Of a stretch of DNA of 64,000 nucleotides, positions 25,247-63,225 are shown one piece after another. Every line of letters starts with the position of its first letter. Position 1 is the stretch's first letter. Below the pieces are notes generated by a model. The model ran no database searches. It was not told the DNA's origin and saw only the letters and a program-made list of their open reading frames with translations. The DNA is from Actinoallomurus spadix. Its GTDB lineage: Bacteria > Actinomycetota > Actinomycetes > Streptosporangiales > Streptosporangiaceae. Both the position numbers and the translations under genes were made by a program. Location of the stretch: positions 248,001 to 312,000 of the forward strand of contig NZ_JAMXMX010000005.1 of assembly GCF_024055725.1 (NCBI RefSeq), given 5' to 3'.

Positions 25247-25849
25247 ATGACCGCCCCACCCGGCGTCGTCGACGCACGCGACGAGGACGCCACGGTGGTC
25301 CGGCGGTCGTGGCATGAGCCCGATCTGTTCACAGTGATCTACGACAGGTACTTCCCGCAGATCTACCGGTACGTGGCCGGGCGCCTCGGCCGTGACGTCG
25401 CCGACGACGTCGCGGCGGAGGTGTTCCTCACCGCGTTCCGTAAGCGCGACCGCTTCGACCCGGAGCGCGGTGCCGTACGCCCCTGGCTGTTCGGCATCGC
25501 CAACAACCTGGTCGGGCAGTACCGGCGCGACGAGAGCAGGCGCTACGCGGCGCTGGCCCGCCTGGGAGGTGACCAGGTGGGCGGGGAGCACGAGGAGCGG
25601 GTCACCGCCCGGGTCACCGCGGAGGGCATGCGGCCCCGGCTGGCCGAGGCGCTCGCGGCGTTGCCGGAGGGAGACCGGGACGTGCTGCTGCTCGTCGCGC
25701 TGGGCGGCCTCGGTTACCAGGAGGCCGCGCAGGCGCTGGAGATCCCGGGAGGCACCGTCGGATCGCGGCTGAGCAGGGCTCGGAAGAAACTGCGGAAGGC
25801 ACTGGGCGGGACCGACCCCATGTCCGCGAAGGAAGACTCACATGGATGA
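25247..25849 (+). CDS. ECF-type RNA polymerase sigma factor
   Basis: The 200-aa protein has sigma region 2 (FTVIYDRYFPQIYRYVAGRLG, then DVAAEVFLTAFRKRDRF) and region 4 (LAALPEGDRDVLLLVALGGLGYQEAAQALEI with the HTH in GGTVGSRLSRARKKL), without regions 1 or 3. Start choice: ATG 25247 has GGAG 6 nt before it; ATG 25235 and GTG 25199 are in frame but less well placed. It overlaps the next gene by 8 bp, the usual layout with a regulator of the sigma factor. The 293-bp gap to the divergent coiled-coil gene shows no clear element. Confidence 0.9.
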   Translation: MTAPPGVVDARDEDATVVRRSWHEPDLFTVIYDRYFPQIYRYVAGRLGRDVADDVAAEVFLTAFRKRDRFDPERGAVRPWLFGIANNLVGQYRRDESRRYAALARLGGDQVGGEHEERVTARVTAEGMRPRLAEALAALPEGDRDVLLLVALGGLGYQEAAQALEIPGGTVGSRLSRARKKLRKALGGTDPMSAKEDSHG

Positions 25850-57343: not shown

Positions 57344-58507
57344 ATGACGGATCAGGACGCACGGCTCGAACGCCTCCTCGCCCGCCACCGCGACGCCACG
57401 GTGGTCGAGGCGCTCCCCGGCCGCCCGGCGCTCGTCCGCCGCGACCAGATCCTCGTCGCGGCCCATGACGCGCCGGCGGTCGAGGACTCCGTACGACGCT
57501 GGTACGACACCCGGCACGACGGGCCGGGAGCGGCCCGCCTGCTGCTGCGCCCGGGCGCGAAGGTGGACGTGTGCGACCTGGCCGCCCGGCTGTCCGGCGG
57601 CGCGCCGCACCGGCGGCTGGCCGTCGCGCCCAACCATCTCGTCCACGGGCAGCCGATGTGGTGGAGCGGCCCGGCGGGGGCACCGCGCCCCGCGCCGGCG
57701 CTCGGCGCGCCGGTCGCCGACGGGACGGCCCGCCGCGCGGTCACGGTCGCCGTCCTCGACACGGGTCTGTCACCGCACCCGTGGTACTCCTCGGCAGCCT
57801 GGTACGCCGAGCAGCGCGAGGAGGTCACCGAGGTCTTGGACGCCGACCTGGACCACGAACTCGACGGGCAGGCCGGGCACGGCACGTTCATCGCCGGCGT
57901 GGTGCTGCGCCGCGCCCCGTCGGCGCGGATCCGCGCCAGGCGGGTGATCGGCGGCGACGGCGTGGGTGACGAGTTCGGCGTCCTGCACGCCCTCGCCTGG
58001 CTGGCCGGCCGGGGACACGCGGACGTCGTCAACCTGTCCTTCGGATGCCACACGTACGACGACCGCCCCTCGCCCCTGGTCTCCCGCGCCGTCGCCGCCC
58101 TCGGCCGCCGCGCGGTCGTCGTGGCCTGTGCGGGCAACCACGCGAGCGACCGGCCGTTCTGGCCTGCCGCCCTCAAGCAGGTGATCGCGGTGGCCGCGCT
58201 GGACGGCGACGAGCGCGCGGCGTTCTCCGGCTACGGCTGGTGGGTGGACGCCTGCGCGCCCGGCGTCGACGTCCACAGTTGCTTCGTCCGCTTCGACGGG
58301 CCCCGGCCGCGTGCCGGCGGGATCGACCCCGACGACTTCACCGGGTACGCCGTCTGGAGCGGCACGTCCTTCGCGGCCCCCGCCGTGGCGGGCGCGATCG
58401 CCGGGCTCGCCGCCGCCGAGGACCTGCCCGCCCCGGTCGCCGCCGACCGCCTCCTCGACCCGGCGGCCCACCGCGTTCACCCCGACCTCGGCGTGGTCGT
58501 CGCCTGA
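57344..58507 (+). CDS. Subtilisin-like (S8) serine protease without signal peptide
   Basis: The 387-aa protein has an N-terminal region of about 130 residues and an S8 domain with a complete triad: Asp139 (VAVLDTGLS), His179 (GHGTFIAG) and Ser342 (WSGTSFAAPAVAG), with oxyanion Asn265 in CAGNHAS. No Sec or Tat signal and no membrane helix are present, so it is predicted to be cytosolic, unlike most subtilases. Such S8 proteins often lie near the sigma/TPR-CHAT genes; that operon begins 1.2 kb downstream. ATG 57344 has AAGGTGG 6 nt before it. Confidence 0.9.
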   Translation: MTDQDARLERLLARHRDATVVEALPGRPALVRRDQILVAAHDAPAVEDSVRRWYDTRHDGPGAARLLLRPGAKVDVCDLAARLSGGAPHRRLAVAPNHLVHGQPMWWSGPAGAPRPAPALGAPVADGTARRAVTVAVLDTGLSPHPWYSSAAWYAEQREEVTEVLDADLDHELDGQAGHGTFIAGVVLRRAPSARIRARRVIGGDGVGDEFGVLHALAWLAGRGHADVVNLSFGCHTYDDRPSPLVSRAVAALGRRAVVVACAGNHASDRPFWPAALKQVIAVAALDGDERAAFSGYGWWVDACAPGVDVHSCFVRFDGPRPRAGGIDPDDFTGYAVWSGTSFAAPAVAGAIAGLAAAEDLPAPVAADRLLDPAAHRVHPDLGVVVA

Positions 58508-58889: not shown

Positions 58890-59648
58890 ATGAGACGTCG
58901 AGCCATCGCGGTCGCCCTGGCGCTGGCCGGCTCGGTCCTCACCCCGGCGATGGCCGGCACCCCGGCACACGCCGACACCCAGATCTGCGCGCAGTACGGC
59001 TCGACCAAGATCCAGAACGGCCGGTACGTCGTCCAGAACAACAACTGGGGCGACAGCACGACGCAGTGCATCAACGTCACCGGCTCCGGCTTCTCGGTCA
59101 CCACCGCCAGCCACAACAAGCCGCAGAACGGCGCGCCCGGCTCGTACCCGTCGATCTACGCCGGCTGCCACTACGGGAACTGCTCCACCGGCAGCGGCCT
59201 GCCCCTGCGCGCCGACGACGGCCGGTTCAACACGATCCAGACCAGTGTGAGCATGTCCTACCCCGGCTCCGGGGTGTACGACGCGTCGTACGACGTCTGG
59301 TTCGACCCGACGGCCCGCACGAACGGCCAGAACACCGGCGCGGAGCTCATGGTCTGGCTGAACCACACCGGTTCGGTGCAGCCCGTCGGCTCCAGGGTCG
59401 CCACCGTCAGCCTCGCCGGCGGGACCTGGGACGTCTGGTACGGCAACAGCGGCTGGAACGTCGTGTCGTACGTGCGCACCTCCCCGACCTCCTCGATCTC
59501 CTTCCCGGTGCACACCTTCTACGACGACATGGTGCGACGCGGCTACGCGCAGCGCTCCTGGTACGTCACCAGCGTCCAGGCGGGATTCGAGCCGTGGGTC
59601 GGCGGCGTGGGCCTCGCCGTGAACAACTTCTCGTACAGCATCGGCTGA
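58890..59648 (+). CDS. Secreted endo-beta-1,4-glucanase, GH12
   Basis: The 252-aa protein has a Sec signal (about residues 1-28, ending AHA) and a complete GH12 jelly-roll: CAQYGSTKIQNGRYVVQNNNWG, YPSIYAGCHYGNCS, ELMVWLNHTG and VTSVQAGFEPWVGGVGLAVNNFSY. Catalytic glutamates are Glu152 (nucleophile) and Glu234 (acid/base). It would hydrolyse cellulose or beta-glucan outside the cell. There is no cellulose-binding module. The CebR-type box upstream fits cellobiose control. ATG 58890 has GGAGG 6 nt before it. Confidence 0.93.
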   Translation: MRRRAIAVALALAGSVLTPAMAGTPAHADTQICAQYGSTKIQNGRYVVQNNNWGDSTTQCINVTGSGFSVTTASHNKPQNGAPGSYPSIYAGCHYGNCSTGSGLPLRADDGRFNTIQTSVSMSYPGSGVYDASYDVWFDPTARTNGQNTGAELMVWLNHTGSVQPVGSRVATVSLAGGTWDVWYGNSGWNVVSYVRTSPTSSISFPVHTFYDDMVRRGYAQRSWYVTSVQAGFEPWVGGVGLAVNNFSYSIG

Positions 59649-59731
59649 TCGCACCGCCGGTCCCCCGGAGGGGCGGCGCCGCCGAAGCCGCCCCTCCTTC
59701 AACTCATCGTAGTCACTCAGATACTTTCCGC

Positions 59732-59737
59732 TAATAT
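59732..59737 (+). promoter_or_regulatory. -10 element for the sigma/CHAT operon (leaderless)
   Basis: TAATAT at 59732-59737 is a near-perfect -10 box and ends 8 bp before the GTG at 59746. The -35 region is weak (TAGTCA at 59710). A start point at about 59744-59746 would make a leaderless transcript. Confidence 0.5.
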
Positions 59738-59745
59738 TTCGGCGC

Positions 59746-60276
59746 GTGGACTGGAACGAGACCGGTGAACTGGTGAGACGGGCCCGGGCGGGTGACCCGG
59801 CGGCGTGGCGGGCCCTCGTCGACCGCTACTCCCGGCTGCTGTACGCGATCGCACGCTCGTACGGACTGGGTGGCGCGGACATCGATGACGTCGTGCAGAC
59901 GACGTGGCTGCGGCTGGTCGAGCGGCTGCCCCGGCTGCGCGACCCGGCGCGGGCGGGCGCCTGGCTGGCCGTCACCGCCCGCCGGGAGAGCCAGGCGGTG
60001 CTGCGGCGGCGCGGTCGCGAACGCCCCCTCACCGGTCACACGCCGACGGTGACCGGGCCGCACCACGCGGTGTTCGGGCGGGAGCTCGCCGGGTCGGTGG
60101 CCGCCGCGCTCGACACCGTGCCGCCCCGCTGCCGCGCGCTGCTCGAGCTGTCCATCGCCTCCCCGCGCCTCAGCTACGCGGAGATCTCGACGGCACTGGG
60201 CGTGCCGCTGGGCAGCGTCGGCCCGACCCGCACCCGCTGTCTCCTCCACCTGCGGCGCCGGCTCGGTGTGGCGTGA
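59746..60276 (+). CDS. ECF-like RNA polymerase sigma factor linked to CHAT protease
   Basis: The 176-aa protein has sigma region 2 (ARAGDPAAWRALVDRYSRLLYAIARSYGLGGADIDDVVQTTWLRL) and region 4 (VPPRCRALLELSIASPRLSYAEISTALGVPLGSVGPTRTRCLLHLRRRL). It overlaps the next gene by 4 bp. The upstream -10 box ends 8 bp before the GTG, suggesting leaderless translation. It probably drives its own operon when released by the two downstream proteins. Confidence 0.9.
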   Translation: MDWNETGELVRRARAGDPAAWRALVDRYSRLLYAIARSYGLGGADIDDVVQTTWLRLVERLPRLRDPARAGAWLAVTARRESQAVLRRRGRERPLTGHTPTVTGPHHAVFGRELAGSVAAALDTVPPRCRALLELSIASPRLSYAEISTALGVPLGSVGPTRTRCLLHLRRRLGVA

Positions 60277-60689
60277 CCGACGAGGAGCTGATCGAGCGGC
60301 TGCGCACGGCGTTCCCGCCGGTGCCGGGCCACCTGCTCGCCGTAGGGCTGGCCGCGTTCGGCTGGCTGGTCCCGGACGCGACGCTGGCGACGCTCGCCTA
60401 CGACGCGGCGGACACCCCGGCCGGAGTGCGCGGCGGCGAGCCGCGGACGCTGACGTTCGCCGGGCCGGACGTCCGCGTGGAGATCGAGATCTGCGGGCGG
60501 GAGATCGTGGGGCAGCTCGCGCCCGCGGCGGACGCGGAGGTGATCCTCCGGTCACCCGCCGGCGAGCGCGGCACCCGCACCGACGAGTCCGGCGGGTTCG
60601 TCCTGCCGGAGGTCCCGGCCGGCCTGGTCAGCCTCCTGTTCCGGCCGGCCGACGGCACGTCGATCGTGACGAGCTGGATTCATGTCTGA
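60273..60689 (+). CDS. Small beta-sandwich protein between sigma factor and CHAT protease
   Basis: The 138-aa protein has an N-terminal helical half (TDEELIERLRTAFPPVPG, GWLVPDATLATLAYDAADTP) and a C-terminal Ig/carboxypeptidase-regulatory-like half (AEVILRSPAGERGTRTDESGGFVLPEVPAGLVSLLFRP). No membrane segment. It overlaps the sigma stop by 4 bp and the CHAT start by 8 bp, so all three are coupled. By analogy with Csx30 in type III-E systems it could be an inhibitor of the sigma factor and substrate of the protease; this is untested. Confidence 0.75.
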   Translation: MTDEELIERLRTAFPPVPGHLLAVGLAAFGWLVPDATLATLAYDAADTPAGVRGGEPRTLTFAGPDVRVEIEICGREIVGQLAPAADAEVILRSPAGERGTRTDESGGFVLPEVPAGLVSLLFRPADGTSIVTSWIHV

Positions 60690-63225
60690 CCTCCTGGCGC
60701 TCGCGGCGCACGATCCGCGCGGCGTGTACGCCACCGCGTCGGAGCTGCGGGACACCGGCGACCCGGGGCAACGCGTGCTGGCGCTGCGGGCCCTCGGCCT
60801 GGCCGGCAAGGAGCTGGGCCGGCTCCGGGAGGGCATCGCGCACCTGCGTGAGGCCCTGCGCCTCGCCGAGTCGGCGCGGCTCGGCTACGCCGCCGCCCAG
60901 GTGCGGATGAACCTCGTCGGCCTGCTGGCCGCCGGCGGGGACATCGAGGGCGCGCTGGCCGCGGCGGACGCCGCGGCGCCGGTGCTGACCGGCGCCGACG
61001 CCGACCGGCTGCTGGCCAACCGCGCCTACCTCCTCGCCCGGAGCGGCCGCATCCGCGAGGTCGCCCGCATCGCCCGGACCTGCACCGACCCGGAGATCCT
61101 CGTGGGCCTGCGGATCAACACCGGGCTCGCGAAGGCGTACGCCGGCCGGCTCGGGCGCGGGGAGGCCGACCTGCGGGTGGCGCTCGCGGTCGCCGAACGC
61201 GCGGGTCTACGGCACCAGGCGGCGATGGTCCGGCACAACCTCGCGTTCGTCGCCATGCGCCGCGGTGACCTCCCCCGCGCGCTGGCCCTGTACGACGTGG
61301 TCGAGCCGGAGTTCGCCGGCGCGGAGGAGCGCCTCTGCCAGCTGCGCGTCGACCGGGCCGAGGCACTCATCGCCGCACGGCTGCCCGGAGAGGCCCGTGT
61401 CCTGCTGGCGGACACCGTCGACCGGCTGACGGCCGGCGGCTACCGGTGCGACACCGCCGACGCCCTCTTGCTCCTCGCGCACGCCGAACTCGCCGACGGC
61501 GATCCGGAGGCCGCCGCGGAGACCGCCCGGCGGGCCCGGGCGGAGTTCGCGGAGCGCACCGGATCCGCGCTCCTCGCCGAGCAGGTCGGCCTGCGCGCCC
61601 GCTGGGCGCACGGCGACCGGTCCGCCGCCCTGCTCGCGGCGGCCGAGCGGACGGCCGAACGGCTGGCGGCGTACGGCTGGGCCTCCGCCGCGGCGGACGC
61701 CCGTACGCTGGCGGCCCTCGTCGCCCTCAGCCGCGCGGACCCGGACCACGCCGAGCACCTCCTCTCCCGGGTCAGGGGCGGCACCGTGAGCACCCGGGTC
61801 GCGGCCCTGCACGCGACCGCGCTGCTCCGGCTCGCCCGCGGCGACCGGCCCGGCGCGTCCGCCGCCGTCCGCGCCGGACTGCGCGCCGCCGACGAGCATG
61901 CCGCCGCGCTCGGCGCGGTCGAGTTGCGCGGCCGCGCGGCGGGATGGGCGGCGGAGCTGGCCGACCTCGGGGTCCGGCTCGCTACCGGTCCCCGCGCCCT
62001 GCTGGTGGCGGCCGAGCGGGCACGGGCGATCGCCGGCCGCCCGCCCGCCGTACGCCCGCCCCGCGACCGGCGACTCGCCGGGCTGCTCGCCGAACTGCGC
62101 CGTGTCAGCGCCGAGGTTCCCGGCCGCCCGGAGCTGCAGGCAGCCCAGCGCCGTCTGGAGGGCGCCGTCCGCGCCCGGTGCCGCCACCTGTCCTCCAGCC
62201 GGGACGCGGTCGCCGGGTGGGGCTGGCTCGTCCCCGCCCTCGCCGAGGCGCTGGGCGACCGGATGCTCGTCGAATTCGTCCGTGTCGGTGCGGATCTCCT
62301 CGCCGTGACCCTGGCGGACGGACGCTGCCGCCGCCGCGTCCTCGGCCCGTACGACAAGGTACGGACCGACGTGCGCCTCGTGCGATTCGCCGTCTCCCGG
62401 CTGGCCCACGACCCCGGCAACGCGGCGGCGCGCGCCTCGCTCGCGGCCACCGCGGGTCGCCTGCACGCCCGGCTGATCGCGCCGCTGTCCGTCGGGGAAC
62501 GGCCGCTGGTCCTCGCACCGGTGGGGGCGCTGCACGGCCTGCCCTGGGCCGCCCTGCCCTCCCTGACGGGCCGCCCGGTGACGGTCGCGCCGTCCGCCGC
62601 GAGCTGGCTGCGCGCGATGCGGACACCGTCGGCCGGCGGGCACGTGACGCTCGTCGCCGGTCCCGATCTCACGCACGCGGACGAGGAGATCGGCGCCGTA
62701 CGCGCATCGCACCCGGAGGCTCGGGTCCTCACCGGCGCCGCCGCGACCGCCGAGAACGCCCGGTCCGCCCTCGACGGCGCCGCGATCGCCCACATCGCCG
62801 CGCATGGAGCCTTCCGATCAGGGAACGCCCTGTTCTCCGGCCTCCGTCTGGCCGACGGGCCCCTGTTCACCTACGACCTGGAGCACCTGGAGCGACCCCC
62901 GCGCCTGCTGGTCCTGTCCGCCTGCGACGCGGGTCGCGTGGAGATCTACGAGGGTGAAGCGGTCATCGGCATGGTCACCGCCGCCCTGGGCTTCGGCACC
63001 GCCACGGTCGTCGCCGCCGTCACCCCGGTCGGCGACGCCGCCGCCCGCGACCTGATGACGGGTTTCCACCGACGCCTCGCCGCGGGCGCGTCCCCCGCCG
63101 ACGCCCTCGCCACGGCCTCCGGGTCCCTGTCCGCCCTCGGCTTCGTCTGCTTCGGCGCCGGCCACGATGGGCACGCGTCGTCCGGATGTGACGATGGTCC
63201 CCGTCCAGGGACAGCGGCGCTTTGA
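60682..63225 (+). CDS. TPR-CHAT protease
   Basis: The 847-aa protein has an N-terminal array of TPR-like helical repeats (about residues 1-430, units of about 34-38 residues), a linker, and a C-terminal CHAT caspase-like protease domain (about 540-820). The catalytic dyad is His708 in AHIAAHGAFRSG and Cys748 in LLVLSACDAGRVE. CHAT proteases cleave partner proteins after a signal received by the helical part. The overlapping sigma and small-protein genes make them the likely partners. Confidence 0.92.
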   Translation: MSDLLALAAHDPRGVYATASELRDTGDPGQRVLALRALGLAGKELGRLREGIAHLREALRLAESARLGYAAAQVRMNLVGLLAAGGDIEGALAAADAAAPVLTGADADRLLANRAYLLARSGRIREVARIARTCTDPEILVGLRINTGLAKAYAGRLGRGEADLRVALAVAERAGLRHQAAMVRHNLAFVAMRRGDLPRALALYDVVEPEFAGAEERLCQLRVDRAEALIAARLPGEARVLLADTVDRLTAGGYRCDTADALLLLAHAELADGDPEAAAETARRARAEFAERTGSALLAEQVGLRARWAHGDRSAALLAAAERTAERLAAYGWASAAADARTLAALVALSRADPDHAEHLLSRVRGGTVSTRVAALHATALLRLARGDRPGASAAVRAGLRAADEHAAALGAVELRGRAAGWAAELADLGVRLATGPRALLVAAERARAIAGRPPAVRPPRDRRLAGLLAELRRVSAEVPGRPELQAAQRRLEGAVRARCRHLSSSRDAVAGWGWLVPALAEALGDRMLVEFVRVGADLLAVTLADGRCRRRVLGPYDKVRTDVRLVRFAVSRLAHDPGNAAARASLAATAGRLHARLIAPLSVGERPLVLAPVGALHGLPWAALPSLTGRPVTVAPSAASWLRAMRTPSAGGHVTLVAGPDLTHADEEIGAVRASHPEARVLTGAAATAENARSALDGAAIAHIAAHGAFRSGNALFSGLRLADGPLFTYDLEHLERPPRLLVLSACDAGRVEIYEGEAVIGMVTAALGFGTATVVAAVTPVGDAAARDLMTGFHRRLAAGASPADALATASGSLSALGFVCFGAGHDGHASSGCDDGPRPGTAAL

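Follow-up and report, generated by a model that had tools for sequence, protein, structure and literature searches.

Here, we describe a conserved unit of four actinobacterial genes that brings a sigma factor together with a small protein and two proteases. It was found in a window of 64,000 nucleotides (nt; the whole stretch of DNA that was analysed) of Actinoallomurus spadix (contig NZ_JAMXMX010000005.1, positions 248,001 to 312,000), whose genome of 8.0 Mb is 98% complete. The unit encodes an extracytoplasmic function (ECF)-type sigma factor, a protein of 138 amino acids (aa), a protease that joins tetratricopeptide repeats (TPR) to a CHAT domain, and an S8 subtilase. With moderate confidence we propose that these proteins form a soluble, protease-operated sigma/anti-sigma switch, in which the steps of binding, signal sensing and cleavage are putative. 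In the window, the sigma gene (59746..60276, + strand, GTG start, 176 aa) overlaps the gene of the small protein (60273..60689, + strand, GTG start) by 4 bp (GTGA), and the latter overlaps the TPR-CHAT gene (60682..63225, + strand, ATG start, 847 aa) by 8 bp. The CHAT protease domain spans 62449..63126 (+ strand) and includes the dyad of His708 (codon 62803-62805) and Cys748 (codon 62923-62925), and the subtilase (387 aa) is encoded upstream at 57344..58507 on the + strand. The open reading frames (ORFs) and the Pfam matches (Sigma70_r2 1.5e-14, CHAT 7.6e-36, Peptidase_S8 2.2e-28) agree with the initial annotation, which had described three overlapping genes of this kind with the His708/Cys748 pair. 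TIGR02937 (8.3e-19) also recovers the sigma protein, whose region 4 stays below the Pfam threshold and carries the signature GSxGPTRxRCLxxLR. With regions 2 and 4 and no long extension, it is an ECF-type factor by its sequence.

The linkage of the four genes was surveyed in the best 80 named of at least 389 candidate sigma loci. Because only the best 80 were kept, this sample leans to the relatives of the window, with many Actinomadura, and it extends to Solirubrobacter, Geodermatophilus, Acidimicrobiia, Nitriliruptorales and Jiangella. The small gene lies directly downstream of the sigma gene in 72 of the 80 loci (E<=1e-8). Leaving aside the 30 loci closer to a contig end, 50 loci are flanked by 5 kb or more in either direction; among these, the small protein is found in 45, the CHAT protease in 40, the subtilase in 40 and all four genes in 39, while 11 miss one or more of them. 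The order S8-sigma-small-CHAT of the window prevails (38 of the 80 loci, plus one with the CHAT gene split into two ORFs). Besides, a divergent CHAT/S8 pair precedes sigma-small in four loci, a divergent S8/CHAT pair does so in two, and CHAT-S8 on the opposite strand precedes sigma-small in one; sigma-small is followed by CHAT/S8 in two loci, or three if one whose CHAT gene is split is counted, and by S8/CHAT in another two. Since all four genes are kept in several orders, the linkage survives rearrangement, and the conserved unit comprises sigma factor, small protein, CHAT protease and subtilase. As a separate observation, one locus of Herbidospora mongoliensis (L193; L and G numbers denote our loci and genomes) has two sigma-small pairs that stand back to back in convergent orientation; L083 apparently belongs to the same contig, and one of the sigma genes is short, with its middle missing.

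The same association is seen at the level of whole genomes. Among 396 genomes of the phylum, the sigma factor occurs in 53 (E<=1e-35), the CHAT protease in 46 (E<=1e-60) and the small protein in 33 (E<=1e-5); as compared by eye, all 46 CHAT genomes and all 33 small-protein genomes fall within the 53 sigma genomes, counts that are not independent events because the genomes are related. The conserved linkage in relatives that the initial annotation depended on is thus borne out by 39 of 50 loci, and the co-occurrence by 46 of 46 CHAT genomes. At the level of the order, the small protein is present in 159 of 200 genomes (E<=0.001). Seven sigma genomes lack CHAT in the survey, three of which (G436, G517, G544) nonetheless show CHAT sequence at their loci (L210, L238, L239). 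That CHAT is absent where it does not stand beside sigma was considered and rejected, since eight of ten genomes having a sigma or small locus without an adjoining CHAT gene carry this CHAT family elsewhere; the remaining two are G468, with no CHAT, and G585, with only a TPR-type match. In seven of the eight loci of such unlinked CHAT genes, S8 adjoins CHAT on the opposite strand in divergent orientation (L226 is the exception). Therefore, the unit falls into two sub-modules, sigma-small and CHAT-S8.

Both proteases keep their catalytic residues, as counted after removal of own-genome copies and contained duplicates and with the diverged branch described below included. All 118 CHAT homologues covering this region have both His708 and Cys748, and because of this invariance the CHAT domain is very likely a working protease. 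For the subtilase, which has about 120 aa N-terminal to its catalytic domain, Asn265 and Ser342 are found in 129 of 129 homologues, His179 in 128 and Asp139 in 127, the remainder being gaps. The initial annotation had regarded this enzyme as a complete S8 protease without signal peptide, and this holds: D139, H179, N265 and S342 are in place, and its N-terminus is not hydrophobic (highest Kyte-Doolittle mean of 15-residue windows in the first 45 residues 0.65, as against 1.99 in the neighbouring GH12 protein). A profile restricted to the CHAT domain retrieved from the PDB the entries 8rot (4.2e-13), the Craspase TPR-CHAT 7x8a (6.2e-8), Csx29 7y9x (6.6e-4) and, weakly, separase (E about 0.01). 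Foldseek with the AlphaFold2 model of small protein and CHAT likewise ranked 8rw5 first (3.9e-13), together with separase (1.7e-12) and Csx29 (8eey_B, 2.3e-12); as the TM-scores of these three are low (0.21-0.47), the match is only partial. Profile and model relate the domain to Csx29, separase and DdvA, the transmembrane anti-sigma factor named in the titles of 8rot and 8rw5.

The small protein is the element for which we propose a new function. Pfam recovers only a sub-threshold CarboxypepD_reg match (2.9e-4), and AlphaFold2 predicts helices, a linker with a predicted local distance difference test (pLDDT) score below 50, and a beta domain of eight strands, i.e., a helical N-terminus, a putatively disordered linker and a CarboxypepD_reg-like beta-sandwich. 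Within the linker, Arg53 (codon 60429..60431, + strand) recurs in 140 of the 141 distinct proteins of the window type, although the flanking positions are only 60-69% conserved and nearby positions are gapped; the sole exception of this type, L110, has an arginine a few residues upstream. For longer, diverged small proteins (17 loci of family f21 and L236), homology to the window type starts at residue 15 of the latter (hhalign 95.7%, E 8.9e-9), and the linker arginine is present in 18 of 18 aligned. The first 50 or so residues of these diverged proteins match a zf-HC2 profile in a one-to-one comparison (hhalign 88.8%, E 2.5e-6), whereas six control segments reach at most 0.9%; the 32 domains behind this profile came from the own genome and from 60 genomes of the phylum. 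Sub-threshold Pfam matches to zf-HC2 were also seen in four of ten small proteins scanned, eight of the ten being of the diverged branch. The zf-HC2 domain is a mark of anti-sigma factors, and the gene directly 3' of a sigma gene is the typical position of an anti-sigma gene. We thus put forward the small protein as an anti-sigma candidate for this sigma group; the anti-sigma-type domain of its diverged homologues supports such an inhibitory role. At L222 of genome G581, which has no CHAT of this family in the survey of 396 genomes, the sigma gene is paired with a small gene whose product has no linker arginine. Our guess that Arg53 is scissile draws on its conservation and the predicted disorder; alternatively, this residue may contact sigma or CHAT.

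According to our proposal, the sigma factor would be bound and held in check by the small protein, whose gene follows immediately 3' of the sigma gene. Once its TPR part met a signal, the TPR-CHAT protein would use its His708/Cys748 protease to cleave the small protein within the flexible linker, in the vicinity of Arg53, and so part the helical N-terminal portion from the beta-sandwich. The subtilase may be a further component of this pathway that completes the degradation, matures CHAT or is matured by it, and the released sigma factor could then bind RNA polymerase.

Several observations weigh against this scheme. An AlphaFold2 model of a sigma-small read-through fusion (L102) has a mean pLDDT of 84 and a predicted TM-score (pTM) of 0.38, and because of the latter it lacks a confident interface; the linker arginine, residue 273 of the fusion, lies in its low-pLDDT segment 269-274. 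The small-CHAT model (L145) scores better (mean pLDDT 89.9, pTM 0.82), but residues 30-58, including the linker, stay below 50, and in neither model is the small protein confidently placed on its partner. Furthermore, the N-terminus of the window type does not match the zf-HC2 profile (hhalign, 0.2%), and the alignment of the diverged small proteins lacks the zinc ligands. G468 and G585, which have no CHAT of this family in the survey of 396 genomes, still keep the linker arginine. Besides, specificity for arginine does not seem to be inherited from separase: residue D2151, which reads the P1 arginine in separase, corresponds to K670 of the Craspase TPR-CHAT (PMC9729208), and in our profile alignment to 7x8a this position falls on R789 of the window protein, which is variable. 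The 99% conserved D785 was considered as a separase-like S1 acid and rejected, since it pairs with S666 of 7x8a while K670 pairs with R789. Small protein, CHAT and S8 can also stand without a sigma gene of their own, as indicated by S8-small-CHAT sets without sigma in three genomes of one family with shared surroundings (L084, L096, L097; these genomes, G098, G063 and G145, hold four, three and four other sigma copies, respectively) and, in two congeneric genomes (L106, L108), by tandem small-CHAT-S8 sets with only one sigma-small pair next to them. Orphan small genes occur as well (L062, L075, L080, L103). Finally, the distance matrices of 78 loci correlate well (r 0.88-0.89 within the trio of sigma, small and CHAT, 0.84 between CHAT and S8, and 0.76 each for S8 with sigma and with small; best of 200 permutations 0.23), but these correlations are confounded, as species relatedness alone can yield r of 0.76-0.89.

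These points leave room for other explanations. There may be no anti-sigma factor at all: the proteases would hold the system in the off state by degrading the sigma factor itself, as suggested for the group ECF54, and the small protein would, as our own addition, be an adaptor that delivers sigma to CHAT or S8. Such an adaptor would equally stay with sigma where the proteases lie elsewhere, Arg53 could be its docking residue, and for ECF54, PMC8999054 speaks of sigma proteolysis with no anti-sigma factor involved. We nevertheless consider this explanation rather unlikely, as the diverged small proteins carry the anti-sigma-type domain at their N-terminus and the small gene occupies the place after sigma where anti-sigma genes are typically found. 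Alternatively, CHAT could be the sensor that activates the subtilase, which would then be the protease that cuts the small protein. The distances of S8 follow those of CHAT more than those of sigma or small, S8 keeps its place beside most of the unlinked CHAT genes, and a separase-type arginine specificity is not evident in CHAT. On the other hand, the invariant dyad makes CHAT very likely a protease in its own right, although its substrate could be the subtilase, and on balance we judge this division of labour to be quite unlikely. It is highly improbable that the genes are chance neighbours in one operon without a common function. The GH12 gene, which separates the subtilase from sigma in the window, would fit such a view, but it is contradicted by the conservation of the unit in several arrangements and several lineages of actinobacteria, and by the co-occurrence in genomes.

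Parts of this picture have been published: the linkage of sigma factor and proteases as group ECF54, the Csx29-Csx30-sigma module of type III-E CRISPR (described in PMC10028731) and DdvA. What we propose as new is the anti-sigma candidate, the linker Arg53, and the separable sigma-small and CHAT-subtilase pairs. ECF54 genes occur with CHAT, subtilase and 'carboxypeptidase' proteins, and proteolytic control has been proposed for them (Huang 2015 and Casas-Pastor 2021, as covered by the review PMC8999054). The window resembles this context in having an ECF sigma factor near CHAT, subtilase and CarboxypepD_reg-type proteins, and the 'carboxypeptidase' of ECF54 is probably a small protein with a CarboxypepD_reg-type fold rather than an enzyme. 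Geodermatophilus, the genus of the ECF54 model protein cited in PMC8999054, is among our sigma loci. The difference is that ECF54 is described there without an anti-sigma factor, while here the small protein is proposed as one; in the literature among the matches listed, we saw no anti-sigma factor named for an ECF54-type group.

With the Craspase, the window shares a TPR-CHAT protein of the same superfamily with a His/Cys dyad, encoded together with an ECF-type sigma factor and one more protein. The N-terminal domain of Csx30 binds sigma, and Csx30 is cut in a C-terminal loop (PMC10028731 and PMC9729208). In contrast, the actinobacterial unit includes the subtilase. The initial annotation had suggested a Craspase-like logic, and for the four-gene module this is plausible: CHAT is related to Csx29 by profile and fold, but the small protein has no detectable similarity to Csx30 at E<=10 in a PDB set containing 8eey, which is titled with Csx30. 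The non-CRISPR setting suggested in the initial annotation agrees with the lack of any RAMP-family (PF03787) match in the 98% complete own genome, in which Cas7-11 was not searched with a model of its own. DdvA also places a CHAT-bearing protein in a sigma/anti-sigma pathway and is the best PDB match both by CHAT profile and by Foldseek. However, its CHAT part sits in the membrane anti-sigma factor itself, whereas here the anti-sigma candidate and TPR-CHAT are separate and apparently soluble, and the His/Cys dyad is invariant in the actinobacterial TPR-CHAT proteins. The partner of DdvA is DdvS. Separase matches TPR-CHAT in fold and weakly by profile, but it is eukaryotic, and a D2151-type reader of the P1 arginine is not found at the aligned position of the window CHAT. 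Taken further, the unit might represent an ancient, CRISPR-free switch of actinobacteria, in which a CHAT protease related to separase and Csx29 cuts a dedicated anti-sigma factor at the linker arginine with the subtilase as second protease, and of which the Craspase arm would be a CRISPR-adapted relative or a parallel; this wider scenario we hold only tentatively. If true, sigma factors released by Craspase-type proteases would be a common chromosomal device in actinobacteria and not a CRISPR speciality, and the signal sensed by the TPR part would become a tractable question. The small protein gives an anti-sigma candidate to a sigma group reported to have none, and R53, C748 and S342 offer single-residue handles on the pathway.

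According to the initial annotation, the sigma factor would transcribe its own operon, and this we could not substantiate. A promoter-like block, GTRRTY-N14-CGCTAATAT (59709..59738, + strand), lies just 5' of the sigma gene, and as GTRRTY-N14-CGCTAATRT it stops 8 nt 5' of the GTG, which suggests a leaderless sigma mRNA. Among 172 stretches upstream of sigma, the block is found without mismatch only in the own genome and in four near relatives (L122-L125; three Actinoallomurus and Actinomadura sp. DC4), and with three mismatches in two further ones (L131, L189), while the Actinomadura loci carry TAGGGTGA-like blocks in its place. In the own genome, the long pattern with up to three mismatches has one site, a perfect one, and the short pattern with up to two mismatches has 36 sites versus 26 for the reversed control, and therefore no regulon was deduced. 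As the exact block is confined to near relatives and the genome searches yield no regulon, self-transcription through a common promoter was rejected. Independently of this, the window contains a second ECF-type sigma gene (25295-25846), which is without the GPTRxRCL signature.

PADLOC matched a subtilase model of generic type (6.1e-11) and, weakly, BovA, IetS and MzaA, none of which we accepted as a defence system. As to the gene order in the window itself, the initial annotation correctly placed the subtilase upstream of sigma but overlooked that the two do not adjoin, since the gene of a secreted GH12 glycosidase (58890-59648) lies between them. Because this gene is confined, among the loci compared, to the own genome and L122 (Actinoallomurus soli, 96% over 239 aa) and does not occur in L123-L125, it looks like a local insertion. 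A. soli is also the closest named relative by the sigma factor among the matches listed (98%).

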